DNA of 64,000 nt from Elusimicrobia bacterium RIFOXYA2_FULL_39_19 (GTDB lineage Bacteria > Elusimicrobiota > Endomicrobiia > CG1-02-37-114 > XYA2-FULL-39-19). Below, piece by piece: positions 1,068-58,360 of the stretch (its first letter is position 1; every line of letters starts with the position of its first letter). The stretch spans positions 1 to 64,000 of the forward strand of contig MGVC01000010.1 of assembly GCA_001800285.1 (NCBI GenBank), in the 5' to 3' direction. The notes under the pieces are model-generated. The model was not told where the DNA came from, searched no databases, and saw only the letters and a list, made by a program, of their open reading frames with translations. A program made the position numbers and the translations under genes.

Positions 1068-2934
1068 AATACTTTTTGTTGACACTCCCATCAATCCTCC
1101 TGGGGGCGGCCAGTTCAGCCTGCTGTTAATATTAAAAAATCTTAACCGCGATATTTTTACACCTATCGTTTATCTTCCTGAAGAAAGCATGTACTCCAAA
1201 ATCCTGGAAGAAAACGGCATAGCCTTTGAGCATGTAAGCCTTAGCAAAACATATTCCTCCTTAGCTTCGCTGAAACCTGATATCATCCATTGCAATGCCC
1301 CTACAACAAAATATAGTTTTATTCTTGCATTTTCAGCCGCCTGCCTGAAAATTCCTTTTGTCTGGCATGTCCGTGTTACGCAGTCAGTAGGCTGGAGAGA
1401 TAGCCTCATGGCGCGTTACAGCTCAAAAATAATTACCATTTCAGATGCCGTACTTCACAAAATACCGCTTAAGTACAGGCATAAGGTTGAAAAAATATTC
1501 AACGCCATAGATACCAGTACGTTTCATTCCGGAATTGACCCTTCCGCATTAAGAGAAGAATTTGGCATTAAAGAAAATGAATTAATTATTGGAATGATAG
1601 GAAGGCTGGATGGCTGGAAACATCAGGAATGTTTTATTGAAAGCGCCTCACTGATAAACCAGAAAGTGTCAAACTGCAAATTTTTTATAGTAGGGTCCGG
1701 TATAAACGAAAAAGCCCTTAAAAATATTGCTGCAAATTCTCCAATAAAAGACAAAATTATTTTCACGGGATACCGAAAAGATATTGCACAGATGAGCTCC
1801 CTGTTTTGTCTTATGATTCATACAGCGGAAAATGAAGCATTCGGCAGAACCATTGTAGAAGCCATGGCCTGCGCAAGGCCTGTTATAGCCATGAATAGCG
1901 GAGGACCTAAAGAAATAATTGAAAATGCAGTTGACGGCTTTATTACCGCCTGTAACCCTGACCAAATAGCAGAAATTGCAGTAAGGCTCCTTACAGATAA
2001 AAACCTTTATAAAACAATTGCCGAAAATGCAGAAAAGAAAATTAAGAAATGTTTTTCAATAGACCAACAGATTTCGAAAATAGAAAACATTTACAAAACA
2101 CTTATTGAAATTTATTATCCGGACATAAAGTGCAACCTCTGCGGAAACTCTTCTTTCGAGATGTTTGAAAGAGGTAACACCCTGAATGTTTTAAAATGCC
2201 GTACCTGCGGGCTGGTTTTTTTAAACCCCATACCCGATACTTCTATTTTAAAAGACAATTATACCGGCGCTTATTACAAGCCCTGGATAGACAACCTGCA
2301 AACAAGCAGATTGAAACTTTTTAGTAACCGCTGGAACAGGATAGGCAGGCATGTTAATAAAGGCAAAATACTTGATGTCGGCTGCGGGCTGGGTGAATTT
2401 CTGGAGTATGCAAAGAAAAACGGTGCGTACCCAACCGGAACTGAGCTGTCTTCCTATGCAGCAAACTACGTAAAAGAAAAACACGGGATTGACGTAATCA
2501 ACGGCACTCTTGAATCCGCAAAGTTTCCTGCCGATAATTTTGATTTTATTTCTATCTGGCACGTACTTGAACATGTTCCTGACCCGACATCTACCTTAAA
2601 AGAAATGCACCGTATTCTTAAGCCGGCAGGCAAAGCAGTGATAGCAGTGCCCAATTTGAATAATATTTTATACCGCCTTGTTTATTTTATTTTCAAAAGA
2701 AAAATACCCAGATTGTTCACAGAAAAAGAAAGAGAATTTCATGTGTATTTCTATACACATGCCACCCTTAGAAAAATGCTTACCAAGGCAGGATTTAGAA
2801 TAATTGAAGAAAGAATTGATATTGACAGGTCTTTCTGGGCAGAAAAACTTATAGACCGGATATCTTATGTCCTTTATAAACTTACCGGAATAAACACAGG
2901 CATTGCTATAGAATTCTTAGTTGAGAAACCTTAA
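1051..2934 (+). CDS. Bifunctional protein: GT4 glycosyltransferase fused to zinc-ribbon SAM methyltransferase
   Basis: The 627 residues carry two enzymes in one frame. Residues 1-350 are a GT-B fold glycosyltransferase of family 4, with a glycine-rich N-terminal loop (PGGGQF) and the nucleotide-sugar-binding EX7E motif at E262...E270. A linker leads to a four-cysteine knuckle (C361, C364, C383, C386). The class I methyltransferase follows, with motif I LDVGCGLGEF (441-450) and HVLEH (504-508). The methyltransferase half matches the stand-alone gene at 7122. The start overlaps the upstream gene by 17 nt and lacks a clear ribosome-binding site, so translation is probably coupled. The inference is sequential sugar transfer and methylation of a surface glycan. 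Confidence 0.85.
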   Translation: MQKKYKILFVDTPINPPGGGQFSLLLILKNLNRDIFTPIVYLPEESMYSKILEENGIAFEHVSLSKTYSSLASLKPDIIHCNAPTTKYSFILAFSAACLKIPFVWHVRVTQSVGWRDSLMARYSSKIITISDAVLHKIPLKYRHKVEKIFNAIDTSTFHSGIDPSALREEFGIKENELIIGMIGRLDGWKHQECFIESASLINQKVSNCKFFIVGSGINEKALKNIAANSPIKDKIIFTGYRKDIAQMSSLFCLMIHTAENEAFGRTIVEAMACARPVIAMNSGGPKEIIENAVDGFITACNPDQIAEIAVRLLTDKNLYKTIAENAEKKIKKCFSIDQQISKIENIYKTLIEIYYPDIKCNLCGNSSFEMFERGNTLNVLKCRTCGLVFLNPIPDTSILKDNYTGAYYKPWIDNLQTSRLKLFSNRWNRIGRHVNKGKILDVGCGLGEFLEYAKKNGAYPTGTELSSYAANYVKEKHGIDVINGTLESAKFPADNFDFISIWHVLEHVPDPTSTLKEMHRILKPAGKAVIAVPNLNNILYRLVYFIFKRKIPRLFTEKEREFHVYFYTHATLRKMLTKAGFRIIEERIDIDRSFWAEKLIDRISYVLYKLTGINTGIAIEFLVEKP

Positions 2935-4022
2935 TGATCATAGGCATAGACAGCAGGGAACTGACACACACCATGACCGGCACCGGCAGAACATTATTAA
3001 ATCTGCTGGAATACATTTCTAAAAATCCGGACCAAAACACCTATCACCTGTTCGGCAATCAAAAAACAAACCTTAATTTCTCATTTCTGAATAACAAAAC
3101 CTTTGTAAAAAATATAATCCCCGAAAAATTCACCTTTTTATGGGACCACTATACTTTAAAACAGCATGTTAAAGCTGCAGGCGTAGAATTGTTTTTTTCC
3201 CCGTACTACAAAGCGCCCTTTATAAAAAACATACCGGCAGTAATAGTAATTTTTGATATTTTTTACCTTAAAATCAAACCCTATTCCCGACGCTACTGCC
3301 GGAATATCTATTACAAAATCAAACTCAAATATAATTGCAGGAAAGCCTACAAAGTAATTACCGGTTCAGAATTTTCAAAAAAAGATTTAGTTGAATATTT
3401 AAACATTCCCAAAGATAAAATCACAGTAATTCCGCTTTCTATTGACAGCAGATACACACCTGCTTCCCGGGAGGCTGTTAACGCAGTAAGAAAAAAATAC
3501 TCTTTGGACAAAAAATACCTGCTCTGCGTGGGCAACTCAAGCCCGCACAAAAACATCAACCTGCTGATAGAAGCCTTTAAAGGGCTTCCGGAAAACATCA
3601 GGAGGGACTATCAGCTTGTTCTGGCGGGAATAAAAAAATCAAACACTGATTACGGCCCCGGTATAATAACAGCGGGTTTTATTTCTGACTCAGACCTGCC
3701 TGCGCTATACTCCGGCGCCGAGCTGTTTGTTTTCCCTTCATTATACGAAGGGTTCGGTTTGCCGGTACTTGAAGCCATGGCGTGTCAATGCCCGGTATTA
3801 ACTTCCAGCTCATCAAGCCTTCCTGAAATAGCCGGTGCGGCGGCGGAATATTTCAATCCTAATTATGCCAATGAACTTAAAAACAAAATACAGGCATTGC
3901 TAAACAACCCGGCGTTAATGAACCGGCTGAAACAAAAAGGTTTTGAAAGAGCAAAATTATTTTCTTCAGACAAAATGTCTAAAGATATTTTAAATATCCT
4001 AAAATCTGCAAAAGAGAAGTAA
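2934..4022 (+). CDS. GT4-family glycosyltransferase
   Basis: The 362-residue GT-B glycosyltransferase starts with the usual 'IGIDSREL' strand and a glycine-containing loop (MTGTGRT). It carries the EX7E motif E272-GFGLPVL-E280, followed by a P-V-L-T-S stretch that lines the donor site. It should use a nucleotide sugar to extend a lipid-linked glycan on the cytoplasmic side of the membrane. The ATG overlaps the preceding stop codon (TAATG), which indicates tight coupling with the fused GT/methyltransferase. The sugar specificity cannot be read from sequence. Confidence 0.88.
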   Translation: MIIGIDSRELTHTMTGTGRTLLNLLEYISKNPDQNTYHLFGNQKTNLNFSFLNNKTFVKNIIPEKFTFLWDHYTLKQHVKAAGVELFFSPYYKAPFIKNIPAVIVIFDIFYLKIKPYSRRYCRNIYYKIKLKYNCRKAYKVITGSEFSKKDLVEYLNIPKDKITVIPLSIDSRYTPASREAVNAVRKKYSLDKKYLLCVGNSSPHKNINLLIEAFKGLPENIRRDYQLVLAGIKKSNTDYGPGIITAGFISDSDLPALYSGAELFVFPSLYEGFGLPVLEAMACQCPVLTSSSSSLPEIAGAAAEYFNPNYANELKNKIQALLNNPALMNRLKQKGFERAKLFSSDKMSKDILNILKSAKEK

Positions 4023-4028
4023 TTTCTT

Positions 4029-7000
4029 ATGTGCGGTATCTGCGGATTCACTTCTACTGAAAACAAACAGCTGCTTCAGGCTATGACGGATGCTTTAATA
4101 CACCGCGGGCCTGACGGCTCTGGTTATTATGCTGATAACCAGGTATCCCTTGGCATGCGCCGGCTCAAAGTAATAGACCTTAATACGGGCGACCAGCCTA
4201 TATATAACGAAGATAAATCACTGGTAATAATTTTTAACGGCGAAATATATAACTTCAAAGCCCTCCGCAAAAACCTTTCCGCCAAAGGCCACATTTTTAA
4301 AACCCAATCTGATACAGAAGTAATCATACACCTTTATGAAGAATATAAAGAAAATTGTGTGACTTACCTTGCCGGCATGTTTGCTTTTTCAATATGGGAC
4401 ATAAAAAACAAGAAATTATTCATTGCCAGAGACCGGATAGGCATCAAACCCCTTTATTACTCCCTGAAAGGAAACCGGCTGATTTTTTCTTCTGAAATAA
4501 ACTCCCTTGTTAAATACCCTGACATATCAAGAGAAACAGACCCGTTATCCTTAAACGAATATCTTACCTTTCTATACATTCCTTCCCCTAATACAATATA
4601 TAAGGAAGTAAAACAGCTGCCGGCCGGTTATTATCTGACATGGGAAGCCGGAAAAACTGATATTAAAAAGTACTGGGATTTGAATTTTAATGATAATCCC
4701 GGACAAAATGAAGAATTCTATCTTGATAAGTTTGATGCCTTGCTTCAAACAGTGGTTAAAGAACATTTAATCAGTGATGTACCAACGGGTATATTTCTTT
4801 CCGGGGGCATTGATTCCAGCCTTATCTGTGCCGTAGCTGCCAAGACTTCCGGCAGCAGCATAAATACATTCAGCCTTGGCTTTTCAAAAAAAGATTCTAC
4901 TTTCAATGAGCTGGATAAAGCAAAAATCGTTTCTGACCACCTTAAAACCAAACACACCGAACATATTGTTTCTCCTGATATAAAAAATCTTACTGAGGCC
5001 ATCACCGCCAGTATGGGCCAGCCTTTTGCAGATTCGTCAGCGCTGGTAAACTACCTGATATCAAACATCAGCAGAAAAGACCTTACCGTTGCGCTTACAG
5101 GCATTGGCGGTGACGAACTCTTCTTTGGCTATCCCAGGTACCAGGGCATAAAACTTTCCACATTACTACCAAGAATTAAATTCCCAGACTTATTTATTAA
5201 CTCTATTCCCGAAACCTATTCTTCCTATAATTACACAGGCCGGATAAAAAGATTTCTCCAGGCCATGGAGCTGGATACCTTTGACAAGTACCTTTCCTAC
5301 ATTTCCTTTTATTATAAAAATGAAAAAAACAGGCTGTATACCGAATCTTATTCGGCATTACTTGCCGCCGAAACCCGGAAAAACGCCCACAAAGAATATT
5401 TTGATTCCTGCCGCTCAAAATCGCTGATGAACAGGATTTCCTATGTGGATATAAAGGCTTATTTGAAAAATGACCTGCTTTACATGGCTGATGCCATGAG
5501 CATGGCAAACTCGCTTGAACTGAGAGTGCCCTTATGTGACCACCGCATTGTAGAGTTTGCAGCAGAAATGCCTGTCGCACTTAAAATGAAAGGGTTTAAA
5601 TTAAAACACTTCCTTAAAAAACTTTCAGCAAGGTATCTGCCTGAAGAGATTCTTCATAAGAAAAAGCAGGGTTTTATGGTACCCATTGCCCGTATATTAA
5701 GGGATAAACTTAGAGCAGATGTTGAAGATTTTATTAAAAAGAAAGAATTTTCATCTTATCTGAACTATGATTACATCCATACCATGTGGCAGGTTCATCT
5801 AAACGGCAAACGCAACTACGCTGATCAGTTCTGGAGCTTCCTGATTCTTGAAAAATGGAAAACCTTAAACAACGTTGAATTTCCAACTGTTTCCGTGCAC
5901 AAATACAAAACAGAAAAGAAACTGAACATTCTGCTGGTATCAGACATTATTTTTGAAGATACTGAAGGCGGTTCCGGCAGAATGGTAACGGAAATGTCAA
6001 AAGCAATGGTAAGGAAAGGGCACTCTGTTACCATAATAACAAGAAATCCCGGTAACGCCCCTGAATTTGAAATAAGAGACACCAGAGAAATTATCCGCTA
6101 TCCTATTTCAACGGATTTGTCGTTGTCAATTTTTAGTTCCTGGGTTAGTCTTAATAAGCTTATCTCAAAACACCTGAAAAACAAACACTTTGATTTGATT
6201 AACTACTATCACCCGCTATCCGCATTGCTGGTAAATTATAACCCGCTTTTTAAAAATGTTCCGAAATTTTATAATTTTAATTCTCCCTGGCACGAAGAAT
6301 ACGAAATCCGGCAGAAGGAAATGGGACATTTGCATCTATTTTCAACTAAACTAAAATCATTTTTAAGGAAAAATATTGAAAAAAACATGATAAATGCCTG
6401 CAGGCATACCGGCGTTTTAAGCGCTTTTATGAAAGACCGCATGATAAAATACCACCATACAGATAAAAACACCATTACCATTGTACCCGGCGGCATAGAT
6501 ACCGCCAGATTTAGTCCAATAGAAAATGTAAATACAGCCAGAGACTCATTAAGTATGAGCAGGCAAAGCAAAATTCTTTTTACCGTAAGAAACCTTGAGC
6601 CAAGAATGGGCCTGGAAAACCTTACTCTTGCCATGAAAAATATTTTAAAAGTTCATCCTGACACATTGTTGTATATCGGCGGCAATGGTTCCATGAAACA
6701 AAAGCTTGAAGAACTTATAGAAGACCTCAAGCTTAACAACTCCGTTATACTGACCGGATTTATAGAAGATGATAAACTGCCGCTTTATTATCAGGCCGCA
6801 GATCTGTTTATCCTGCCGACAACAGAATTGGAAGGATTCGGATTAGTTACCGTAGAAGCGCTTTCCTGCGGTACCCCGGCACTTGGCACACCTATTGGCT
6901 CCACAAATGAAGTTTTAAAGGAACTTAACCTGCTGTTTAAATCACCCTCTCCGGAAGATATGGCAATTAAGATAAATGAATACCTGTCAAAATCTCAACA

Positions 7001-7106
7001 GGAAATTACCCTACTAAAAGAAAAATCCAGGCAGTTTGTGCTAAACACCTACTCCTGGGAAAAAGGCGCTGACAGTATGCTTGATATATTTCGTAAATCA
7101 AACTAA
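4029..7106 (+). CDS. Fusion of asparagine synthetase (AsnB-type) with a GT4 glycosyltransferase
   Basis: This 1025-residue protein is a complete glutamine-hydrolysing asparagine synthetase followed in frame by a complete glycosyltransferase. The N-terminal nucleophile is Cys2 (MCGICG), and the glutaminase part includes HRGPDGSG. The synthetase part has the pyrophosphatase loop SGGIDSS at 258-264. The AsnB part ends near residue 612. After a short charged linker, a GT-B domain begins near 630 (NILLVSDI) and has the EX7E motif E935-GFGLVTV-E943. Stand-alone AsnB homologues are common in O-antigen and EPS loci, where they amidate sugar or carrier carboxylates. The fusion suggests amidation coupled to sugar transfer. 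No stop or frameshift interrupts the junction. Confidence 0.9.
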   Translation: MCGICGFTSTENKQLLQAMTDALIHRGPDGSGYYADNQVSLGMRRLKVIDLNTGDQPIYNEDKSLVIIFNGEIYNFKALRKNLSAKGHIFKTQSDTEVIIHLYEEYKENCVTYLAGMFAFSIWDIKNKKLFIARDRIGIKPLYYSLKGNRLIFSSEINSLVKYPDISRETDPLSLNEYLTFLYIPSPNTIYKEVKQLPAGYYLTWEAGKTDIKKYWDLNFNDNPGQNEEFYLDKFDALLQTVVKEHLISDVPTGIFLSGGIDSSLICAVAAKTSGSSINTFSLGFSKKDSTFNELDKAKIVSDHLKTKHTEHIVSPDIKNLTEAITASMGQPFADSSALVNYLISNISRKDLTVALTGIGGDELFFGYPRYQGIKLSTLLPRIKFPDLFINSIPETYSSYNYTGRIKRFLQAMELDTFDKYLSYISFYYKNEKNRLYTESYSALLAAETRKNAHKEYFDSCRSKSLMNRISYVDIKAYLKNDLLYMADAMSMANSLELRVPLCDHRIVEFAAEMPVALKMKGFKLKHFLKKLSARYLPEEILHKKKQGFMVPIARILRDKLRADVEDFIKKKEFSSYLNYDYIHTMWQVHLNGKRNYADQFWSFLILEKWKTLNNVEFPTVSVHKYKTEKKLNILLVSDIIFEDTEGGSGRMVTEMSKAMVRKGHSVTIITRNPGNAPEFEIRDTREIIRYPISTDLSLSIFSSWVSLNKLISKHLKNKHFDLINYYHPLSALLVNYNPLFKNVPKFYNFNSPWHEEYEIRQKEMGHLHLFSTKLKSFLRKNIEKNMINACRHTGVLSAFMKDRMIKYHHTDKNTITIVPGGIDTARFSPIENVNTARDSLSMSRQSKILFTVRNLEPRMGLENLTLAMKNILKVHPDTLLYIGGNGSMKQKLEELIEDLKLNNSVILTGFIEDDKLPLYYQAADLFILPTTELEGFGLVTVEALSCGTPALGTPIGSTNEVLKELNLLFKSPSPEDMAIKINEYLSKSQQEITLLKEKSRQFVLNTYSWEKGADSMLDIFRKSN

Positions 7107-7121
7107 ACAGAGGTTATCTTA

Positions 7122-8000
7122 ATGGAAAGTAATTCATCACTGGAATTTGTAAAATGCAATGTCTGCGGGGCAGATAAAACCAGAACAATCATACCTACAA
7201 TGAAAAACCTTGTAAAATGCCTAAACTGCGGGCTTATTTACAGAAATCCCAGAATTCATCAAGAAGCATGGATTGACTCCCAGAAACAATCCCCTTATAA
7301 AAATACCGAGCTCACCTTTCACAGCGCAGAAGAAAATATAATGAAACACACCATTTCAAGGCTCCAGAAAAGATTTAAAGGAAAATCCGTGAAACTGATT
7401 GATATCGGCTGCGGTTTTGGGGCTTTTCTAAACCTTATAAAAGATTCCGGCTGGGACATAAGCGGTATGGATGTCTGTAAGGATGCTACTGATTTTGTAA
7501 AAGACAAACTTAATATTCCCGTGCTCTGTACCTACATTACCAACTCCGGATTAAAAGACAACACTTTTGACCTGGTTACCATGTTCAGCGTGATTGACAT
7601 GTTAAACGACCCTAAAAAGCAGCTGCAGGATGTAGCGCGCATACTTAAAAAAGACGGGTTGCTTGTTATGCGCATAAATAACGGACTCTGGCATGCCGCT
7701 CTTTCCAGGTTTAATTTTTTACTGAACAGAATTGGCATTTATCCCGCCGTAATACACCTTTACGCATTAAGGCCTAAAGATGTAAAGAAACTGCTCGAAC
7801 TTACCGGTTATAAAAACATAGTTATAGAAAACTCAAAATTTACCAAAGGAGATATTTATAATACAGGCGGGGTTTTCGGCAAATATTTTGTAATTCTTGG
7901 AAAGTTTGCCATGTACTACTTCTCCGAGATGGTTTACTATTTCTCATTTAAACAAATTGCCCTATTTCCCACAATAATGGCCTATGCCCAAAAAAACTAA
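7122..8000 (+). CDS. SAM-dependent methyltransferase with N-terminal zinc ribbon
   Basis: The 292-residue protein starts with a four-cysteine knuckle (C12, C15, C33, C36; 'KCLNCGLIYRNP'). The Rossmann core follows, with LIDIGCGFGAF as motif I. The usual D/E-VLEH post-motif reads FSVIDML, so the catalytic or binding details differ from its neighbours. It is clearly related to the methyltransferase half of the fused gene at 1051. The C-terminal ~50 residues are hydrophobic. GAGG lies about 10 nt before the ATG. It probably methylates a sugar within the glycan pathway of this cluster. Confidence 0.83.
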   Translation: MESNSSLEFVKCNVCGADKTRTIIPTMKNLVKCLNCGLIYRNPRIHQEAWIDSQKQSPYKNTELTFHSAEENIMKHTISRLQKRFKGKSVKLIDIGCGFGAFLNLIKDSGWDISGMDVCKDATDFVKDKLNIPVLCTYITNSGLKDNTFDLVTMFSVIDMLNDPKKQLQDVARILKKDGLLVMRINNGLWHAALSRFNFLLNRIGIYPAVIHLYALRPKDVKKLLELTGYKNIVIENSKFTKGDIYNTGGVFGKYFVILGKFAMYYFSEMVYYFSFKQIALFPTIMAYAQKN

Positions 8001-9210
8001 AATATTCCATATTATTACCAGGCTTGATAAAGGCGGGTCCGCGGAAAACACCATAATTACCTGCAGGCAGACAAACACGGAAAAGTTTGATTCTCACCTG
8101 CTGTTTGGGCCCAGTAATTTTAAAATCAGCGAGCTGTCGGGAATAAAGTATTTTCAAATCAAAAACCTTGAAAGAGAAATATCCCTTTTTACGGATATTA
8201 AAGCCTTTTTTGAAATTGCGCGCCTGTTAAAAACCGAACACCCTGATATTCTTCATACCCATTCTTCAAAAGCAGGTTTTCTCGGCAGATGGGCTGCCTT
8301 TTACGTTAATCATATTTCAAAGTTCACTCGTAACCATACAACGAGTAACCCCGTCGATTTTGGCACGACAGGCAAATCTCAAATCTCAATTAAGATAGTT
8401 CACACTCCGCACGGCCATGTATTTTATGGATACTCCGGACTTATAAAAACAAAACTGTTTATTATTCTTGAAAAAATTACCGCTCTTATAACTGATAAGC
8501 TGATAGCCCTGACAGAAGGCGAACGGGACGAATCAATAGCTTTTGGCGTAGGCAACATCGGACAATGGGCAGTTGTGCACAGCGGTGTTGATTACCCGGT
8601 AAATCTTGATTTTAACACTTCGGAGCTGAAAAAACAGCTAGACATAAGACCTGAAGCAGTGGTTATAGGTTCAGTAGCCCGGCTTGACCCGGTAAAAGGA
8701 ATAGTTCACCTTGTTGACGCATTCAAACTGCTTATTGATTACTCTTTACCGTTACCGGCTTATCTATTAATTGTCGGTGACGGCACAGAAAGAAAAAACA
8801 TAGAAAGCACAATTCAATCACTTAACTTGAAAAATAAAGTTATTCTTACCGGGATGAGAAATGATGTTATAAACCTCATGTCTATCATGGATATTTATGT
8901 TCAACCATCTTTAAATGAAGGCATGGGAAAAACCATTTTACAGGCCATGCTTCTGAAAAAAGCGGTTATTGGCACAAACGTTCAGGGCATACCCAGCCTT
9001 ATTAAGCATAATGATACAGGCATTTTAGTAAAACCGGCATCACCGCAGGAATTGGCAGAAGAAATTGAAAAGCTTATTAATGATAAAACCTATGCGGAAA
9101 AACTGGGTGCAAATGCTTATGCTTTCGTAACTGAAAAAAAAGACGGATTTCTTAAGTTCAGCCCGGAAAGAATGGTCTTTCTTTTAGAACAAATCTATGA
9201 AAATCTATAA
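7984..9210 (+). CDS. GT4 glycosyltransferase carrying an in-frame insertion
   Basis: The 408-residue GT-B enzyme is of the type seen in EPS and O-antigen clusters, with an HTHSSKAGF motif (from H91) and a THPGH-like acceptor-loop motif, TPHGH (141-145). Two things are unusual. Residues ~113-136 are extra sequence between the helix ending in 'GRWAAFYV' and the strand 'IKIVHTPHGH'; they are encoded by a hairpin and tandem micro-repeats. The second glutamate of EX7E is glutamine (E312...Q320). The gene overlaps the preceding and following genes by 17 and 14 nt. Most residues needed for donor binding remain, so the enzyme may be active. Confidence 0.85.
   Translation: MPKKTKIFHIITRLDKGGSAENTIITCRQTNTEKFDSHLLFGPSNFKISELSGIKYFQIKNLEREISLFTDIKAFFEIARLLKTEHPDILHTHSSKAGFLGRWAAFYVNHISKFTRNHTTSNPVDFGTTGKSQISIKIVHTPHGHVFYGYSGLIKTKLFIILEKITALITDKLIALTEGERDESIAFGVGNIGQWAVVHSGVDYPVNLDFNTSELKKQLDIRPEAVVIGSVARLDPVKGIVHLVDAFKLLIDYSLPLPAYLLIVGDGTERKNIESTIQSLNLKNKVILTGMRNDVINLMSIMDIYVQPSLNEGMGKTILQAMLLKKAVIGTNVQGIPSLIKHNDTGILVKPASPQELAEEIEKLINDKTYAEKLGANAYAFVTEKKDGFLKFSPERMVFLLEQIYENL
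8320..8391 (+). repeat. Micro-repeat insertion inside a glycosyltransferase gene
   Basis: This stretch keeps the reading frame but looks foreign to the fold. ACTCGT (8326-8331) and ACGAGT (8341-8346) form a 6-bp inverted repeat. Further on, CAAATCTC and AAATCTCAA form a direct repeat. It encodes residues ~113-136, a polar segment placed between two core secondary-structure elements of the GT-B fold. No second full copy was seen in the window, so calling it a mobile micro-repeat is an inference. Confidence 0.4.
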
Positions 9211-10615
9211 AATCAGCCGGTTTATCTTCTTGTTTGTTTTACTTTACTGCGTCTGTCAGATACCGATTGCTGCCTATCAGCAGGTTTCCTGTGTAATGCA
9301 CATTCATTCCGTTTTCAGCGCCAACGGCAGGCAGACGCTTGAACAAATAGCTGAAAATGCAAAAAATAGCGGCATAAATGTAATCATCCCTGCTGATCAT
9401 GATATCCAGGAATTTGAATACGGCATTTGGCCCTTTTCTCGGCTGATTAAAAAAACAATAATCAACAATTCAATTTTGTATATGGGCGGCAGTAAATACC
9501 TCAACGAAATACACAGGGTTCAGGAAAAATACCCTGATATGGTTATCATTCCGGGAGTTGAATCAGCCCCCTATTACTACTGGACCGGCAATCCTCTAAA
9601 AAAATCCCTTACCATGAATAACTGGCACAAACACATCCTGCTTATCGGATTGAATGACCCGCGCTCTTACGATAATCTGCCGGTACTTGGAAATCAAAAA
9701 TCAAAAACCTTTAATCCCATACTGTTGTGGCCGGCAGTTTTTATAATTGCCGGATTTTTTTTAATTAGAAACAGAACTTTACTTATACTTTTTCAGCTGG
9801 CGGCCTTACTGCTGCTGCTTTATAACTATCCTTACAATTCATATATGTTTAATCAGTATAATGGAGACCAGAAAGAACTGCCCTATCAAAATATAATAAA
9901 CTATACCGCTAATGCCGGCGGGCTTACTTTTTGGGCACACCCGGAAGCAAGAAACTGGAAAAATTCAGAAAACTTTAACGGCGTTTCAATTAAAACAAAA
10001 CCCTACCCGGAATCTATACTTGATACTTTCGGTTATACAGGATTTTCATACTTTTGGGAAGGAACAGATATAATCGGCAAACCCGAAGGTTTCTGGGACA
10101 CAGCCCTTACGCAGTACTGCAAAGGCACAAGAAAATCACCTGTTTGGGCCACGGCAGAGCTTGATTATATTGAAGACGGCCTGCGCAATAACTGGCTTAA
10201 CCTTAACAAAAATATTCTTTACGTAGAAAAACTTGATAAAGAAAATGTTATGGACTCTTTAAGAAAAGGCCGGTTTTTCATTACCTCAAAACAAAAACCC
10301 GATTCCCCTGACCCGGTCATGAACGATTTTGCAGTTTCTTCTGATAAAGGCAGCGCAATTTTTGGCGAAACCCTAAACTATTCAGGGTCTGTAAAGATTT
10401 CTTTCAATCTCAATACAACTGCCCGGATGAAAACAAACACAACGATTAGGCTGATTGAAAACGGCAGAATTGTTCAGGAATTCAATAAAAAAATACCGCT
10501 GAAATTTGAATATATTTTTACTCCATCAACTGACAGGTCTTACTGCCGCTTTGAAATAGATTTTGACTGCGGTGTAAAACTTGTTAGCAACCCCGTTTTT
10601 TTATATAATAATTAA
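9197..10615 (+). CDS. Membrane-anchored PHP-domain metallohydrolase-like protein
   Basis: The 472-residue protein has an N-terminal signal or anchor helix (residues 8-26). A PHP domain follows, with metal-ligand motifs H35-x-H37, D67-H68, GVES, and a late W-A-H248. PHP domains hydrolyse phosphoesters using a trinuclear metal site; this one resembles the CehA/McbA-like branch. Two adjacent hydrophobic helices (about 178-212) interrupt the catalytic domain between the E and the last H motif. The C-terminal ~100 residues look like a beta-sandwich. The active site is probably extracytoplasmic. Its place among glycan genes suggests removal of phosphate from a lipid or glycan carrier, but the substrate is unproven. 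Confidence 0.7.
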   Translation: MKIYKISRFIFLFVLLYCVCQIPIAAYQQVSCVMHIHSVFSANGRQTLEQIAENAKNSGINVIIPADHDIQEFEYGIWPFSRLIKKTIINNSILYMGGSKYLNEIHRVQEKYPDMVIIPGVESAPYYYWTGNPLKKSLTMNNWHKHILLIGLNDPRSYDNLPVLGNQKSKTFNPILLWPAVFIIAGFFLIRNRTLLILFQLAALLLLLYNYPYNSYMFNQYNGDQKELPYQNIINYTANAGGLTFWAHPEARNWKNSENFNGVSIKTKPYPESILDTFGYTGFSYFWEGTDIIGKPEGFWDTALTQYCKGTRKSPVWATAELDYIEDGLRNNWLNLNKNILYVEKLDKENVMDSLRKGRFFITSKQKPDSPDPVMNDFAVSSDKGSAIFGETLNYSGSVKISFNLNTTARMKTNTTIRLIENGRIVQEFNKKIPLKFEYIFTPSTDRSYCRFEIDFDCGVKLVSNPVFLYNN

Positions 10616-10616
10616 A

Positions 10617-11294
10617 ATGATTATGTCAGTACATCAGGCGCAGTACATTCCCTGGCTTGGATATTTCAATAAAATAGCAAAAAGCGACATTTTCGTAGTC
10701 CTTGACAACGTGCAGTACAAAAAAAGAGAATACCAAAACAGAAACCGCATAAGGACCAAGCAGGGCTGGCTCTGGCTTACGGTCCCGGTCATAACCAAAG
10801 AAAAGTTTTTTCAAAAAATCAACGAAGTGGAAATTGACAATACTGCCGACTGGAAAGAAAAACATTTTGAAACTATAAAAGTAAATTACAGCCACGCAAA
10901 ATTCTATAAAGATTACATAGGCTTTTTTGAAAACTGTTTTCAGAAAGACTGGCAGAAACTGCAGGATTTAAATATGGAAATAATTAATTTTGCCCTGCAA
11001 GTATTGGATATTAAAACACCCTTGAAACTTGAGTCCGAACTTCAGATTGAGGGCACATCAACTCAGCGTATTGTCAATATCTGTAAAAAGCTTTCTGCAA
11101 ATACTTATCTTTCCGGGTCCGGTGGAAAAGACTATATGAATGAAAGCCTGTTTCAGAATGAAAATATCGGCCTTGAATATCAGAGCTTCACCCATCCTCG
11201 TTACGAACAGGTTTATCCGGGCTTTGAACCCTATATGTCGATTATTGACCTTATTTTAAACCACGGGCAAGAAAGCAGAAACTTTATTATATAA
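10617..11294 (+). CDS. WbqC-like family protein
   Basis: The protein belongs to the WbqC-like family, shown by the N-terminal signature HQAQYIPWLGYFNKI, then DNVQYKKREYQNRNRI, and a later YLSGSGGKDY. Family members lie in O-antigen and EPS loci and are thought to act on amino-sugar or acyl modifications, but no activity is firmly established. I chose the ATG at 10617, just after the previous stop at 10613-10615. A longer reading from 10581 would add a hydrophobic leader that the family lacks. ATG 10623 is equally possible. No clear Shine-Dalgarno is seen, which fits translational coupling. Confidence 0.82.
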   Translation: MIMSVHQAQYIPWLGYFNKIAKSDIFVVLDNVQYKKREYQNRNRIRTKQGWLWLTVPVITKEKFFQKINEVEIDNTADWKEKHFETIKVNYSHAKFYKDYIGFFENCFQKDWQKLQDLNMEIINFALQVLDIKTPLKLESELQIEGTSTQRIVNICKKLSANTYLSGSGGKDYMNESLFQNENIGLEYQSFTHPRYEQVYPGFEPYMSIIDLILNHGQESRNFII

Positions 11295-11316: not shown

Positions 11317-12117
11317 ATGTACGAAAATTTCTGGGCCTTAAAAGAAAAACCGTTTGAAAACACTCCTGACCCGTTATTTTTCTTCAATTCCAAACAACAT
11401 GAAGAAGGCCTTTCAAGAATGCTTTATGTTATTCGTGAAAGCAAGGGGGCGGGGCTGCTTACCGGCATCTACGGCTGCGGCAAGACCCTTCTTTCCAGGG
11501 CCCTTTTTAAAGAACTGGAACAGGATATTTATAAAGTTGCCTTTATCACCAATCCCCGGCTTGACGATGTAGAACTGCTTAGAATGATCTCACACAACCT
11601 CGGCATTCAAAATGTCTCTTCTAAAAAATCCGACATACTTATCGGCCTTGAACTGGCGCTTAAAAACAATATGGCTGACGGCAAAAAATCCATAATAATC
11701 ATAGATGAAGCCCACGCTATTGAAGATAAAAATATATTTGAAGAAGTAAGGCTGCTGCTGAATTTCCAGTACGAAAATAAGTTTATGCTTACCCTCATAC
11801 TAATAGGCCAACCCGAATTAAAAGAAAAAATTGAAAATATAAAACAATTAAACCAGAGAATTGCCATGCGGTTCCACCTGGAAGGTTTAAACAAAGAAGA
11901 AACCAAAGGTTATATAACACACCGTTTAAATATAGCCGGCGCAAAAAAACCAATTTTCACAGATGATTCCATAAGCACCATTTTTGAACGCTCCGGCGGA
12001 ATACCCAGAAGAATAAACCAAATCTGCGACTGCGCCCTTTTAACAGGATTCGGCAAAGAAGTTAAACTTATAAATAAGGAAATAGTTGAAGAAACAATAA
12101 AAAGCCTGAACATATAA
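11317..12117 (+). CDS. ExeA/GspA-type AAA ATPase
   Basis: The 266-residue ATPase has the family's N-terminal pattern (FWALKEKPFENTPDP), Walker A G50-IYGCGKT-57 and Walker B IIIIDE (D130, E131). A sensor-type SGGIPRRINQICD lies near the C-terminus. ExeA-like ATPases energise assembly of secretion, pilus or EPS machinery; a related group accompanies PEP-CTERM/exosortase EPS loci. Here the peptidoglycan-binding C-terminal half of classical ExeA is missing and no exosortase is nearby. AGGA sits about 8 nt upstream of the ATG. Its partner is probably the surrounding glycan assembly system. Confidence 0.82.
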   Translation: MYENFWALKEKPFENTPDPLFFFNSKQHEEGLSRMLYVIRESKGAGLLTGIYGCGKTLLSRALFKELEQDIYKVAFITNPRLDDVELLRMISHNLGIQNVSSKKSDILIGLELALKNNMADGKKSIIIIDEAHAIEDKNIFEEVRLLLNFQYENKFMLTLILIGQPELKEKIENIKQLNQRIAMRFHLEGLNKEETKGYITHRLNIAGAKKPIFTDDSISTIFERSGGIPRRINQICDCALLTGFGKEVKLINKEIVEETIKSLNI

Positions 12118-12133: not shown

Positions 12134-12769
12134 TTGAAAATACTTGTTATCGGCGCTCACCCGGATGACCTTGAATACGGATGCGGAGGCACTATTGCCA
12201 AACTTAAAAAACAGGGGTTTGAAATCTCCCTGCTTATTATGACACGGGGACAGATTGGCGGCAATTCAAAAACCCGTAAAAAAGAACAGGAAAGCGTAGC
12301 CAAACTGCTTGATGCCAAACTTTTCTGGGGCAACTTTACCGATACCCGGGTGCCCATAACAAAAGAAGTTGTAAATAAAATTGAATCTATTATAAAAATT
12401 GTAAACCCGGGCCTTATTTTTGTACATCATCCGGAAGACACCCATCAGGACCACCGCAACACCAGCCAGGCAACTATAACTGCCACCAGATATATCCGTA
12501 ACGTGCTTTTTTATGAAGTTCCCACAACCGTAAATTTTCAGCCGACGGTTTTTGTTGATATAGGAAACAGCATTCAAAGCAAAATAAGGATCCTTGAAGC
12601 TCATAAATCCCAAGTACATGCCACCAGAATAGCCGAACTTTCAATTTTAGAAAGCGCAAAAGCCTGCGCTATTTTTAGAGGATTCCAGAATAGGGTAAAA
12701 TATGCAGAAGGATTTGTCCCTTTGCGTTTAGCGCTTGATTATTATCTGGAAAAAAATGTCCAAATATAG
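12134..12769 (+). CDS. PIG-L family deacetylase (TTG start)
   Basis: The 211-residue zinc-dependent N-deacetylase of the LmbE/PIG-L/BshB family has AHPDD at 8-12 and the second metal motif H104-QDH-107. These enzymes remove acetyl groups from N-acetylglucosamine conjugates: GlcNAc-malate in bacillithiol synthesis, or GlcNAc-lipid. The neighbouring WecA-like transferase and glycosyltransferases favour a glycan substrate. The start is TTG at 12134: it has a strong GGAGGTT at 12124-12130, and the family's conserved 'ILVIGAHPDD' begins two residues later, so no ATG alternative is possible. Confidence 0.85.
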   Translation: MKILVIGAHPDDLEYGCGGTIAKLKKQGFEISLLIMTRGQIGGNSKTRKKEQESVAKLLDAKLFWGNFTDTRVPITKEVVNKIESIIKIVNPGLIFVHHPEDTHQDHRNTSQATITATRYIRNVLFYEVPTTVNFQPTVFVDIGNSIQSKIRILEAHKSQVHATRIAELSILESAKACAIFRGFQNRVKYAEGFVPLRLALDYYLEKNVQI

Positions 12770-13874
12770 AAAACTTTATTACTCATTTCTTGCTTTAATT
12801 ATACTATTGCTTATCCAGCCTAAGGGCGGCACCTGGTTTTATGCCAACTATCTTCGCTGGCTCTACCTCATGCTGCTTGGTTTTGCCATAGCAAACCTGC
12901 TTACACCCCTTTGCATTTATCTGGGACATAAACTCAATATCCTTGATAAGCCCGATGCCAGAAAGGTACATGATACACCTGTCCCCAGGATAGGCGGTAT
13001 AGTTATTTATACCGCATTTTTAATTACGGTGGTAAGAAACCTGCAGTTTACCAATGAAATTATCGGTATTACTTTAGGCGCCACCATAATATTTCTACTG
13101 GGTTTAAGAGATGACATAAAACCTGTTTCTGCCACTGCCAGAATAGTTTTTCAACTCCTGGCAGCAATCACCGCCATTTACTTCGGCGTGCGCACCGATA
13201 TTTTTCCAACTGCCATGCCTTTTCATGATGTCTTTGACATTATTCTTACCCTTCTATGGTTCATTGGAATTCTTAATGCTGTAAATTTTCTTGATGGAAT
13301 AGACGGCTTAGTTACATCTTTTGGCATTGTCTGCTCCTCGCTTTTCTTTCTTATTGCACTTCCCACTGAACAAAAATACCTGGCATGGATGTGCATCACC
13401 CTTGCCAGTGTATGTATGGGTTTTCTTCCTTACAATTGGAACAAAGCAAAAATTTTTCTTGGAGATTCCGGGTCTACCTTAATAGGTTTTCTTCTGGCGG
13501 GCTTCGCAGTGTTTGGCACCTGGGCAGACAACAATGCTGCGGTTGCTTTTTCAACCCCTCTTTTAATTTTAAGCATCCCCATTTTTGACATGATCTACAC
13601 CACTATTTCAAGGTTTAGAAATGGCAGTGTAAAAAACGTGAAAGAATGGCTGGAATATGTAGGAAAAGACCATTTTCACCACAGGCTTCTCACTTTAGGG
13701 CTAAACGTCAAACAAAGCGTCAGCTTTATTGTACTGTTAAATTTAATTCTGGGGCTTGGTGCACTGTTAATCAGAAGCGTGGGATCAAACGGTTCTTATG
13801 TACTACTTATACAGGCCTTTGGTATTTTCTCAATAATCGTCATACTGATGTTATCAGGCAGAACCATTGAATAG
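12756..13874 (+). CDS. WecA/TagO-like undecaprenyl-phosphate sugar-1-phosphate transferase
   Basis: This polytopic membrane enzyme of the MraY/WecA superfamily has about eleven hydrophobic segments. It has the conserved RKVHDTPVPRIGG loop, the metal-binding LRDD, NFLDGIDGL, FLGDSGS and the HFHHRLL loop. It transfers a sugar-1-phosphate, usually GlcNAc-1-P, to undecaprenyl phosphate and so starts glycan assembly on the lipid carrier. I prefer the ATG at 12756 to an upstream TTG at 12735. It overlaps the deacetylase gene by 14 nt. Its product is the natural platform for the glycosyltransferases upstream and for the deacetylase immediately before it. Confidence 0.87.
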   Translation: MSKYRKLYYSFLALIILLLIQPKGGTWFYANYLRWLYLMLLGFAIANLLTPLCIYLGHKLNILDKPDARKVHDTPVPRIGGIVIYTAFLITVVRNLQFTNEIIGITLGATIIFLLGLRDDIKPVSATARIVFQLLAAITAIYFGVRTDIFPTAMPFHDVFDIILTLLWFIGILNAVNFLDGIDGLVTSFGIVCSSLFFLIALPTEQKYLAWMCITLASVCMGFLPYNWNKAKIFLGDSGSTLIGFLLAGFAVFGTWADNNAAVAFSTPLLILSIPIFDMIYTTISRFRNGSVKNVKEWLEYVGKDHFHHRLLTLGLNVKQSVSFIVLLNLILGLGALLIRSVGSNGSYVLLIQAFGIFSIIVILMLSGRTIE

Positions 13875-41123: not shown

Positions 41124-42203
41124 TTACAGCCACCTGGCCTTCACGTATTCACAAAAAGGTTTCACTACTTTTTCTGGTGTTAATGTTTCAATATATAATG
41201 TATAGCCTTTTTCACCAATTTTATTTCTTAGCTCCGGGCTGTTTTTTAGGTACATTATTTCGTAAGCCAGTGATTCATCATTTGCTATTTCGCAAAATAC
41301 TGCTGTTTCACCGTTTTTAAGTACTTCTGCAGCGGCACGTGTTTCTGCGGTAATAACCGGTTTTTTCATAGCCAGCGCCTGGTAAACTTTATGAGGCAGC
41401 ACGTTTCTTGCTTTATCCGAATTATTAAATATGCCTAAACAAATATCTGATTTAGCAATCAATCCTGGAAGAATACCTTCATCAACAGTTCCGATAAGCT
41501 CAATATTTTTAATATCCAGTTCATTAATTATTGTTACTATTTCCTGATAAGTCTGGCCCATGCCAATAATTTTAAAAACTATATCTTTCTGGTTTTCAAG
41601 CCTTTTAGCGGCTTTCACTATGTATTCAATGCCATGCAGAGGAATAAAAGTACCCCAGAAAAGCACAGTAAAGCATTTTTCCCGCACCTGGTGCTGATAT
41701 TTTTTGCAATCAAAAACCTCACTATCCGCTCCAACCAGAATTCTTAAGAATTTTTTATGATAAAGAAAAAATGTTCTTTTAAAATAATCTATGTGTGCAA
41801 AAGTATCCAGAATTATTGCATCTGCCAATAAACAACCGATTTTTTCTATCAGGTACATTTTTTTTGCCGCAAAGGAATTTTCAGGAATCAGCTTTCTGTC
41901 ATAGACATTCATCTGGTAAACGGAAAAAAAAGCATCCAGAATAACGGGCTTTCCCCACAACAAACCAATCATTTTTGCCAGAGGCATCAGCACAAAACCC
42001 GTTTCCCCTACTATAATTACATCTATATTTTTATTAAGCTTCAGCCATTTAAAAAACAACTTAACATACACTTTCATAAAACCCGAATATTGCGTATTAC
42101 ACAAAATTACTTCATGGCTATTTTTTTCCAGGCCCTTCCTTATTATTCTATTGCGCTGATAAGTAGGCTCAAAAGTTCCAAAATAACAGATATTCATATT
42201 CAA
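41124..42203 (-). CDS. GT4-like glycosyltransferase
   Basis: The 359-residue GT-B glycosyltransferase starts NICYFGTFEPTYQRNRI. A donor-binding region follows with VLFWGTFIPLHGIEYIVKAA, and a C-terminal part with PHKVYQALAMKKPVITAE replaces the classical EX7E by a K-x2-QALA pattern. That pattern is common in the GT4 branch that transfers sugars in EPS loci. It starts one base after the next upstream methyltransferase gene ends. The specific sugar is unknown. Confidence 0.85.
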   Translation of the reverse strand: MNMNICYFGTFEPTYQRNRIIRKGLEKNSHEVILCNTQYSGFMKVYVKLFFKWLKLNKNIDVIIVGETGFVLMPLAKMIGLLWGKPVILDAFFSVYQMNVYDRKLIPENSFAAKKMYLIEKIGCLLADAIILDTFAHIDYFKRTFFLYHKKFLRILVGADSEVFDCKKYQHQVREKCFTVLFWGTFIPLHGIEYIVKAAKRLENQKDIVFKIIGMGQTYQEIVTIINELDIKNIELIGTVDEGILPGLIAKSDICLGIFNNSDKARNVLPHKVYQALAMKKPVITAETRAAAEVLKNGETAVFCEIANDESLAYEIMYLKNSPELRNKIGEKGYTLYIETLTPEKVVKPFCEYVKARWL

Positions 42204-42974
42204 TCAACCCTTACTCTGATGTTTTGTGCATATATATATATCGTCACTTATGTCTAATGAGTATTTCTTAACCTGTTCTGGCGTAAACTCTGCGGCATAA
42301 TTTTCAATTTTTACTTTAAATCCGGATAATTCAAGAATATTTTTGTAATCAATTCCATAGAGCCTTATATGGCCTTCCAACCCAAACTTTCTTTTTTGCT
42401 CCAGGGGATCGGTAAGGGAAATGTCTTGTATTGTCTGTATAAGGGTTTTATCCAGCGGCGCCATAATTATTGCCCAGCCGCCGGGTTGCAGGACTCTATA
42501 AAGTTCTTTTAATGCCAGCTTATCATCTGCGACATGTTCAAGCACATGAACGCATATTATAACGTCAAAAAAACCGTCCGGATATTTTATGTTTGTGATA
42601 TCCATTTTTTCCATTGCCTGCTTATTGCTTATGTCAACGCTCAGGTAGGATAAATTTTTAATTTTTTTCAGCCTATCACCGATTATCTTTTCAGGGCCTA
42701 TAGCCGCAAAATGTAAAACAGCATGTTTATTTGTTAATATATCCGTTTTTTTCTGCAGGTAGCTCCATGTAAGGCGCTGTCTTTCCAGTGAAAAACACCT
42801 GGGGCATTGCACATTTTCCCTGCCGTTTAATTCAAGAAATTTCCTGCCTTTCCAGCCGCAACAGAGGCATTCTACATTATTGCCGGCATACCAGAATGAC
42901 TTAACTATGGATTTAAGTTTTAAAAGTATAGCATTGTCAGGCACTGTATTGTTCAACTTCTCACTGTTTATCAT
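42204..42974 (-). CDS. SAM-dependent methyltransferase with N-terminal cysteine knuckle
   Basis: The 256-residue class I methyltransferase has an N-terminal four-cysteine module (CLCCGWKGRKF...VQCPRC). Motif I is less obvious (VLHFAAIGPEK), followed by LSVDIS and the post-motif HVLEHVADDKLALKE with the PGG loop. This layout recurs in EPS loci. It overlaps the following methyltransferase gene by 4 nt, so the two may act in sequence on one glycan. Confidence 0.83.
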   Translation of the reverse strand: MINSEKLNNTVPDNAILLKLKSIVKSFWYAGNNVECLCCGWKGRKFLELNGRENVQCPRCFSLERQRLTWSYLQKKTDILTNKHAVLHFAAIGPEKIIGDRLKKIKNLSYLSVDISNKQAMEKMDITNIKYPDGFFDVIICVHVLEHVADDKLALKELYRVLQPGGWAIIMAPLDKTLIQTIQDISLTDPLEQKRKFGLEGHIRLYGIDYKNILELSGFKVKIENYAAEFTPEQVKKYSLDISDDIYICTKHQSKG

Positions 42975-43681
42975 ATTATCTCAATTGTAAATATTTTTCT
43001 GTAACAGCTTCCAAAATTAAAATGTTTCCATAAAAACAAAAGCAAAAGGCCGAACCTGCCCCTTAAAGGAAGCAGCAGGTAGTTGCCGGGAAGATTTGAA
43101 ATTCTTGAATAATACCACAAATATACATTCACGTTGTTTTTTACTTTTATGCTGATTGATTTTTTTAGTTTTTCTGAAGCATTTTTAACAGCAGCTGATA
43201 TTTCTTCTACCTGCGGAAAAGCGTATTTCATATGTTCCTGCAGAAACGGGTTATCTTTTCCAAAAACCTTTTTGTATCTGTTATTATATTTCTGTTCATG
43301 ATTTCTGGCACTGTGGCCGCAGGGCACGCCTAAAATAACAGCCCTGCCCGCTGTTCTAAGAAGCTCTGTTATTACAGCTTCTCTTGCTGATGCCTCTATA
43401 TGCTCAAGCATATCCAGGGAAATCACATACTCATAACTGTTATCATTAAACGGCATTTTAGCAGCGTCACAGGTTACTCTTTTAATGTGCGGTTGATTGT
43501 CCGGGTAAAGATCTACATCAAGAGCAGTAATTTCAAACGGATAAAACTGAGTGATACCCAAAATATTAGCACCAACTTCAAGAATTTTATCAGTCTCTTT
43601 TTTATGATTTTTAAGATATTCAATTACGGGCAGATATCTTAACACGTGGTCTAATGTACTTTTTCCGTACTTTTTAATCAC
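42971..43681 (-). CDS. SAM-dependent methyltransferase (GTG start)
   Basis: The 236-residue class I methyltransferase has EVGANILGITQFYPF as motif I, TALDVD as the acidic strand end and SLDMLEHI as post-motif. The start is GTG, which shares its last base region with the radical-SAM stop codon (TAGTG). The C-terminal ~50 residues are basic and hydrophobic and may lie at the membrane. It is in the centre of the EPS operon between a radical SAM enzyme and another methyltransferase. Confidence 0.8.
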   Translation of the reverse strand: MIKKYGKSTLDHVLRYLPVIEYLKNHKKETDKILEVGANILGITQFYPFEITALDVDLYPDNQPHIKRVTCDAAKMPFNDNSYEYVISLDMLEHIEASAREAVITELLRTAGRAVILGVPCGHSARNHEQKYNNRYKKVFGKDNPFLQEHMKYAFPQVEEISAAVKNASEKLKKSISIKVKNNVNVYLWYYSRISNLPGNYLLLPLRGRFGLLLLFLWKHFNFGSCYRKIFTIEII

Positions 43682-44742
43682 TATATTCCCCTAAGCAACA
43701 TGCAGTGCCTGCACTCGGAAGCAACAGCTTCCCTGCTGATTTTCCTGAACTCTTTATATTTTGAAGAATTGAATATCTCCTTAATTGTGTTATTATTTAC
43801 ATTTCCTATTACTAACTGCGTGTTTTGAATTATTTTGTTTCTGCTTATAACTCCGGGTACCGGATGCCCCAAATCACAGCAGGGAGAAACGTTGCCATCC
43901 CAGGAAATAAACATGGTTTTTTCTATATTTAACGGGCACAGGCCCGGCGCCTGCGGTTCAAAGGATTTAAAACAAAACTCTATTGTTACTCCAAGTTTTT
44001 GGGCCAAAGCCCTGCTTTCTTTTACTATATTGTCTCTTTTTTGCACATCAATACACTGCTGCTCATCAATTTTATATAGCAGCAAATCAATCTCTTCTTC
44101 TCTGGATACTACATGCTGCTGGTTTACCAGTAGCCTGTGTGCTTTTAAATCTTTTGCCATTTGAACCATTTTGGGCAGGTCTTCTAAGTTTTGCTTGTTA
44201 ATTACAATAGCTATATCAATTAAAGGCGAACCTGTTGAATATTTTTCCTTAAAATAGTTCAGCCTTTCAATATTATTAAGCAGTTTTTCCAGGCTGGCAC
44301 CGCGTATCTTTTTGTAGGTTTCTTCTGTAGCACCGTCAACAGAAAATGCCATCCAGTCTACACCAAGCTCTACCAGTTTTTGAGTTTTTGCTTCATCCAG
44401 CGCCTGCCCGTTTGTAGTAAATTTTACAATGCACTTTTTGTCCTTTGCTTTTTTTATAAATTCAAATATGTCCGGGTGAAGCAGTGGTTCACCCCAGCCT
44501 GTGAGGTCCACCATTTTAAACAGGCCGAATTCCCGGGCAATTTTCAGAAATAAATCCCTGGTCATATGCTCATCACAGGACTTAAAAGACCTTCTGGGGC
44601 AAATGGTGCATTTGAGATTACACTTGGAGGTGATTTCCACATTCACCCAGTCAAAAGGCCTGAAATACCTGAGCGCTTTGTTAAAGTACTTTGTAAACGA
44701 TGTTTCCATTAGTGTTATAAACCGCCTTGAACTTATTTGCAT
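43681..44742 (-). CDS. Radical SAM enzyme with SPASM-type C-terminus
   Basis: The 353-residue protein has the radical SAM motif C-x3-C-x2-C in EITSKCNLKCTIC (residues ~38-45), GWGEPLLHP, and TTNGQAL. A C-terminal auxiliary-cluster region has CPLNIEKTMFISWDGNVSPCCD and CRHC. SPASM-type proteins modify peptides, or act in EPS loci on sugars or lipids. The start overlaps the upstream gene by 62 nt; an internal ATG at 44709 would shorten this to 29 nt and is equally plausible. The substrate is unknown. Confidence 0.87.
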   Translation of the reverse strand: MQISSRRFITLMETSFTKYFNKALRYFRPFDWVNVEITSKCNLKCTICPRRSFKSCDEHMTRDLFLKIAREFGLFKMVDLTGWGEPLLHPDIFEFIKKAKDKKCIVKFTTNGQALDEAKTQKLVELGVDWMAFSVDGATEETYKKIRGASLEKLLNNIERLNYFKEKYSTGSPLIDIAIVINKQNLEDLPKMVQMAKDLKAHRLLVNQQHVVSREEEIDLLLYKIDEQQCIDVQKRDNIVKESRALAQKLGVTIEFCFKSFEPQAPGLCPLNIEKTMFISWDGNVSPCCDLGHPVPGVISRNKIIQNTQLVIGNVNNNTIKEIFNSSKYKEFRKISREAVASECRHCMLLRGI

Positions 44743-47039: not shown

Positions 47040-47051
47040 ACAAAGCTCTTT

Positions 47052-49929: not shown

Positions 49930-49930
49930 T

Positions 49931-51826: not shown

Positions 51827-51850
51827 TTTAGATTCCTTGATACGTAACTA

Positions 51851-51935
51851 ATGTTTATAAGTTGATAAGATGATAAGTTTATAAGTACAACCGTCTCCTA
51901 TCAACATGTCATCCTATTAACTTATCAACTATCTT
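51851..51935. repeat. GTTGATAAG-type intergenic repeat with inverted ends
   Basis: The 112-bp gap between the kinase and wza holds tandem words (ATAAGTTGATAAG, ATGATAAG, TTTATAAG) and an inverted 10-bp pair, AGTTGATAAG (51860-51869) and CTTATCAACT (51921-51930). It lacks a clear promoter or T-run terminator. The same word family recurs at 58361-58393. It may be a spacer repeat that could form a weak cruciform or RNA hairpin. Confidence 0.5.
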
Positions 51936-51938
51936 TTT

Positions 51939-58320: not shown

Positions 58321-58360
58321 ATTTCCCTCAATAAATATCAATAAGCGGTGTTTGGTAGTT

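Follow-up and report, generated by a model that had tools for sequence, protein, structure and literature searches.

Amidotransferases of the WbpS kind are the closest described counterparts of the protein considered here. WbpS of Pseudomonas aeruginosa and WbqG of E. coli O121 are placed in the TIGR03108 group, and PGN_1234 is likened to them (PMC7468200). All three are reported as uronamide makers (PMC7468200; for WbpS also PMC3684757), and deletion of PGN_1234 abolishes the uronamide (PMC7468200). The wbpS gene is listed between two glycosyltransferase genes and a wbpS mutant has a colony phenotype (PMC3684757). Transposon hits in a Sphingomonas polysaccharide cluster fall in an exosortase-associated amidotransferase (PMC11340318). 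Like the amidotransferase described below, the enzymes of the WbpS, WbqG and PGN_1234 group are glutamine-dependent and belong to surface-glycan loci, where they are found among glycosyltransferases; the passages that deal with them do not describe them as fused (PMC7468200, PMC3684757).

The protein analysed here is encoded in the first 64,000 nucleotides of contig MGVC01000010.1 of Elusimicrobia bacterium RIFOXYA2_FULL_39_19, a stretch referred to below as the window. It differs from the WbpS group in that its AsnB part is fused, scores below the TIGR03108 cut-off and comes from a genome in which no exosortase was found. The asparagine synthetase AsnB (PDB 1ct9, 6gq3 and 8sue) is of the same family by sequence and has Cys2, the glutamine-site motifs and the ATP-loop motif in common with it. 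However, asparagine synthetase carries Glu in the motif SGEGSDE where the fusion protein has Ile359, and the fusion protein further differs in its glycosyltransferase partner and in its place in a glycan operon. The C-terminal part has the GT-B domains and the EX7E motif in common with GT4 family glycosyltransferases, but is covalently joined to AsnB.

Structure of the fusion gene

An open reading frame on the forward strand (4029-7106) runs from ATG to TAA through 1025 codons with no interruption. It encodes an AsnB-type amidotransferase joined via a short linker to a complete GT4 glycosyltransferase, and the catalytic motifs of both are intact, which confirms the reading of an earlier note on this DNA that a full AsnB continues unbroken into a full GT-B enzyme. 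The amidotransferase part (residues 1-612, 4029-5864) consists of an Ntn glutaminase domain and an ATP-dependent synthetase domain, matched by the Pfam models GATase_7 (residues 44-161, E 3.5e-46) and Asn_synthase (residues 235-611, model positions 2-353 of 354, E 7e-88). Cys2 (4032-4034), the glutaminase nucleophile, is kept in 49 of 51 aligned AsnB rows, the other two being gapped. The ATP pyrophosphate loop SGGIDSS (residues 258-264, 4800-4820) follows the pattern SGGxDS found in all 51 rows, and the glutamine-site residues and Lys546 are also kept in the fusion protein. After the linker (residues 613-631, 5865-5921), the glycosyltransferase part, here labelled GT4a (residues ~632-1025, 5922-7106), has the features by which GT4 membership was judged. 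Its two GT-B domains, Glyco_transf_4 (PF13439, residues 647-827, 77.9 bits) and Glycos_transf_1 (PF00534, residues 838-991, E 1.1e-33, 116.6 bits), both exceed their Pfam cut-offs, and its EX7E motif (E935-E943, 6831-6857) is intact and present in all 30 GT4a rows. All NCBIfam glycosyltransferase models among the 25 matches listed for the fusion protein are below cut-off.

The 340 genomes of the phylum were searched with the whole fusion protein and separately with the GT4 half. The GT4 half matches 29 genomes at E up to 1e-30, and 14 of the 340, the window's own included, have the AsnB-GT4a order, which amounts to 14 of the 29 GT4a-bearing genomes. The search suggested earlier for further fusions of the same domain order has thus yielded 13 other genomes, two of them cut at contig ends or gaps. 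Complete fusions are present in 12 genomes, again including the window's own, at 13 loci, two of which are in G182. The remaining two genomes, G171 and G183, are counted as fused although contig ends or gaps interrupt GT4a; the AsnB frame enters the start of GT4a at a contig end and the remainder begins at the end of another contig or past masked or missing bases. In the other 15 GT4a-bearing genomes there is no AsnB in the GT4a frame, and one of them (G156) has only a partial piece. An assembly join is rejected on account of these 13 genomes and of the even GC content over the junction (0.398 in the AsnB part, 0.385 in the glycosyltransferase part and 0.403 at the junction). The codon CTG for Leu632 (5922-5924) occupies the position of the likely start ATG in the unfused GT4a of G001, the nearest relative. 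The only in-frame ATG, GTG or TTG codons near the junction are GTG at 5895 and ATG at 5982, and by eye no ribosome site is obvious at either of them, so translation of the glycosyltransferase from its own start is unlikely.

The surface-glycan operon

The conserved order of the operon is GT4d, AsnB, GT9 (where present), GT4a, MT3, GT4b, metallohydrolase, WbqC, ATPase, PIG-L and WecA-like, each genome being without some members. All genes of the cluster in the window are on the forward strand, and the methyltransferases and glycosyltransferases were assigned with Pfam. The methyltransferase MT1 (180-1067), which has a homologue in G327, is followed by a second fusion, of GT4c with the methyltransferase MT2 (1051-2934), fused likewise in G327, and by the conserved neighbour GT4d (2934-4022), immediately upstream of the AsnB-GT4 gene. 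Downstream are the methyltransferase MT3 (7122-8000), another conserved neighbour, which is fused to GT4b in G003, G007, G206 and G208; GT4b itself (7984-9210), part of an AsnB fusion in G266; a CehA/McbA-like metallohydrolase (9197-10615; NF038032, 63.7 bits, cut-off 80), also fused in G266; a WbqC family protein (10614-11294; PF08889, E 1.9e-81); an ATPase like the XrtA-associated ATPase (11317-12117; TIGR03015, 244.5 bits, cut-off 324.5); a PIG-L type deacetylase (12134-12769; PF02585, E 3.1e-27); and a WecA-like polyprenyl-phosphate sugar-phosphate transferase (12735-13874; TIGR02380, 121.6 bits, cut-off 326). The window starts at the contig start, and the upstream part of the operon lies beyond the contig end. 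The placing of AsnB in a glycan locus agrees with this gene content and with the top NCBIfam match, a glycan-type amidotransferase model, albeit below cut-off.

The ATPase of the XrtA-associated type is present even though a search of the window's own genome, which is 97.8% complete, found no exosortase (PF09721), the control matching only in M. jannaschii. A second glycan locus on the reverse strand of the window (41124-53204) encodes Wza-like export and Wzc-like kinase proteins and, by eye, flippase-like, polymerase-like and glycosyltransferase proteins. Two further reverse-strand intervals, 56848-58341 and 59309-63982, together hold a member of the PorV/PorQ family (145.1 bits, cut-off 90) and a 1557-residue surface protein whose T9SS type A sorting domain scores 28.7 bits (cut-off 23). 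On contig C81 of the same genome, a 1762-residue frame matches SprA below cut-off. A search for peptidase C25 matched nothing in any control and therefore carries no information. A T9SS link of the genome is a lead only.

Changing fusion partners

In G001, which belongs to the same family and whose AsnB is 59% identical to that of the window, AsnB is fused to a heptosyltransferase-like GT9, and GT4a follows as a gene of its own, with a likely ATG 11 bases past the AsnB-GT9 stop. G195 has the same arrangement, and AsnB-GT9 fusions are also found in G014, G016 and a group of family f16 genomes. No GT9 was found in the window by tblastn with the GT9 of G001 at E up to 1. A triple fusion is present in G266 (L116, 6249-10661), where AsnB, GT4b and the metallohydrolase form a single frame of 1470 residues, the last two parts matching 7984-9210 and 9197-10615 of the window. 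Unfused arrangements comprise AsnB and GT4a as neighbours with a 2-base gap (G006), AsnB and GT9 in two frames that overlap (G119) and a separate AsnB with GT4a upstream (G208). An operon-type AsnB in G152 (L143, 3552-5183) is shortened by an in-frame TAA, and GT9, MT3 and WbqC are its separate neighbours.

The earlier note held that close relatives with two separate genes would speak against the fusion. This holds in part (G001, G003 and G006). The fusion itself is real and recurs outside this genome. The same note took the covalent link as the mark of one substrate common to AsnB and GT4, which is not supported. In the closest relative AsnB is joined to GT9 instead, the GT4 orthologue being a gene of its own, and the variation of the partner among GT9, GT4a and GT4b with metallohydrolase argues against one specific shared substrate. 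The partner is always an operon neighbour; every fusion observed (AsnB-GT9, AsnB-GT4a, AsnB-GT4b-metallohydrolase, MT3-GT4b and GT4c-MT2) joins neighbours of the operon, the last two doing so without AsnB. That AsnB and the glycosyltransferase share a pathway is supported, and one specific substrate shared by the two is only a proposal.

History of the fusions

The AsnB tree was built from 51 rows and rebuilt from 44 after seven partial or distant ones had been dropped and G171 and G183 relabelled as fused. Subclade II (37 of the 51 rows, SH-aLRT 99) contains every fusion. Thirty of its 37 rows are fused and seven unfused, with the two contig-cut rows relabelled, a share that is no estimate of frequency because the rows were drawn from best-scoring loci and fetched stretches. 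The AsnB of the window is sister to the AsnB-GT9 of G001 in the 44-row tree (support 100/100), and in the GT4a tree, of 30 rows, its GT4a has the unfused copy of G001 as sister (99/98). For both halves, a clade test rejects a single origin of AsnB-GT4a, with p-AU of 3e-77 for the AsnB half and of 6e-46 for the GT4a half, where the contig-cut pieces of G171 and G183 still counted as unfused, as did the partial G156; the clade test leaves room for an old fusion with many losses or domain swaps. Because the trees reject a single AsnB-GT4 clade, fusion has probably occurred repeatedly between neighbours of one conserved operon, and separate fusion events are the simplest reading of the trees. In this lineage the window gene most likely came about when operon neighbours were joined in frame. 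The probable route starts from AsnB-GT9 followed by GT4a, as in G001, where loss of the GT9 would produce the window gene in one step. The linker of the window resembles by eye that of the AsnB-GT9 protein of G001, which is weak evidence for this route.

Such fusions may also be neutral by-products of a dense operon, in which a stop is lost between close neighbours and the only cooperation of the two enzymes is their production in equal amounts. This possibility, which is compatible with amidation chemistry, deserves serious weight, though somewhat less than an even chance. It accords with the union of operon neighbours in all fusions seen and with the spacing of the separate genes, 2 bases apart in G006 and overlapping in G119. 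However, AsnB fusions recur and persist inside one genus-level group, which hints at selection but does not prove it.

AsnB and glycosyltransferase genes outside the phylum

A plasmid search returned 899 matching records; among the 15 matches listed, 13 have asnB and at least one glycosyltransferase gene as separate features and two have asnB alone. Eight plasmid regions were examined. A glycosyltransferase gene lies directly downstream of asnB in Gloeothece, Haloarcula, Isosphaeraceae, Gemmobacter and Alteromonas, as two unfused genes, in contrast to the fusion of the window; the Gloeothece plasmid, with GT4, asnB, glycosyltransferase and methyltransferase, has the order of the window. The Sphingomonas plasmid has a GT2 downstream of asnB and another glycosyltransferase upstream, Natrononativus has one upstream, and in Methanosarcina none adjoins asnB. 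No fused AsnB-GT4 frame was found among six loci from a scan of named genome contigs. Sampling beyond the phylum is thin, comprising plasmids and this one scan, and the fusion is not claimed to be unique to the phylum. A literature search by title found no publication on AsnB-glycosyltransferase fusions.

Substrate of the amidotransferase part

The top NCBIfam model for the fusion protein is TIGR03108, which describes the XrtA/PEP-CTERM, WbpS-type amidotransferases, at 566.6 bits against a curated cut-off of 816.9; the co-occurring exosortase that belongs to this model in the XrtA sense was not found in the genome. The asparagine synthase model TIGR01536 passes its cut-off (480.1 bits against 267.1), and the glutamate associated with it (E348 of the E. 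coli enzyme, in SGEGSDE), which human asparagine synthetase also carries, is replaced by Ile359 (5103-5105) in the motif LTGIGGDE. We take this glutamate to be an active-site position; a literature search found no paper on its role. The column holds I, V, L or T, that is an aliphatic residue or rarely Thr, in all 37 rows of subclade II, and Asp in all 14 others. A non-acidic residue is not unique to subclade II, since the plasmid AsnBs of Gloeothece and Methanosarcina have T and Q; those of Haloarcula, Isosphaeraceae, Gemmobacter and Natrononativus have D, and in Sphingomonas and Alteromonas the motif pattern did not locate the site.

If the AsnB part were an ordinary asparagine synthetase, present by chance in a glycan operon, the fusion would have no meaning for the glycan. 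The TIGR01536 score and the intact catalytic motifs would suit such an enzyme, but the absence of an acidic residue throughout subclade II, the conserved place of AsnB between glycosyltransferases and the second AsnB of many phylum genomes, the window's own included, make this very unlikely. The second AsnB of the window's own genome (contig C13; L043, 4953-6854) is unfused, belongs to a different subclade, reads NGDGGDE at the 359 motif and lies beside a GT9-like gene.

Given the non-acidic residue at the Glu position and the top score with the XrtA/WbpS-type model, though below its cut-off, the best guess is that the window AsnB amidates a sugar carboxylate to a uronamide. A nucleotide-sugar dehydrogenase in another glycan locus of the genome (TIGR03026, 413 bits; contig C48, 5578-6891) is a possible source of uronic acid. 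Such dehydrogenases are present in 161 of 166 AsnB-positive and 84 of 174 AsnB-negative phylum genomes (odds ratio 34.5), an association that counts any AsnB and in which genome size and lineage are confounders. A Pfam scan of operon genes in the window revealed no uronic-acid gene among those covered. The acceptor might instead be another carboxylate of the pathway, for example an amino-acid or lactyl substituent. The WbqC and PIG-L genes hint at N-acylated amino sugars, on what we presume to be the function of WbqC. In T9SS linking sugars an amino-acid substituent and a uronamide occur together (PMC7468200). The relatives described in the same paper, however, act on uronic acids (PMC7468200), and an acceptor other than a uronic acid appears unlikely.

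The reading preferred here, at slightly better than even chances, is that a conserved surface-glycan operon encodes a two-enzyme protein in which an amidotransferase of the WbpS/XrtA kind and a GT4 of one pathway were fused from operon neighbours. The N-terminal part would hydrolyse glutamine and deliver ammonia to an ATP-activated carboxylate and so form an amide, for which a carboxylated sugar in the glycan or in its precursor is the most likely site, a uronic acid becoming a uronamide. The C-terminal GT4 would attach a sugar to a lipid-linked chain as a step of that assembly pathway, and channelling between the two sites is conceivable. The conserved operon of glycosyltransferases, methyltransferases, WbqC, PIG-L and WecA-like genes supports this reading. 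The explanation is weakened by the TIGR01536 and TIGR03108 scores, by the location of the dehydrogenase in a different locus with no uronic-acid gene among those scanned in the operon, and by the non-acidic column 359 of some AsnBs outside the phylum. A more far-reaching version, which seems quite unlikely, is a phylum-wide assembly line in which a retuned amidotransferase, devoid of an acidic residue where asparagine synthetase has its glutamate, was combined on independent occasions with three kinds of glycosyltransferase, coupling amidation to growth of the lipid-linked chain, possibly the anchor glycan of the T9SS-like system hinted at in the genome.

Implications

The gene is a real fusion of two known kinds of enzyme, and its interest lies in its repeated, partner-swapping origin and in the altered active-site position. 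That one amidotransferase was joined repeatedly to several glycosyltransferases from a single operon amounts to a natural experiment, which ties the amidotransferase firmly to glycan assembly. Residue 359 may help to tell such amidotransferases from asparagine synthetases in annotation. To our knowledge, it is not settled whether uronamide glycans receive their amide at the nucleotide-sugar stage or while the chain is being extended, and single-gene fusion proteins could be used to test this timing.
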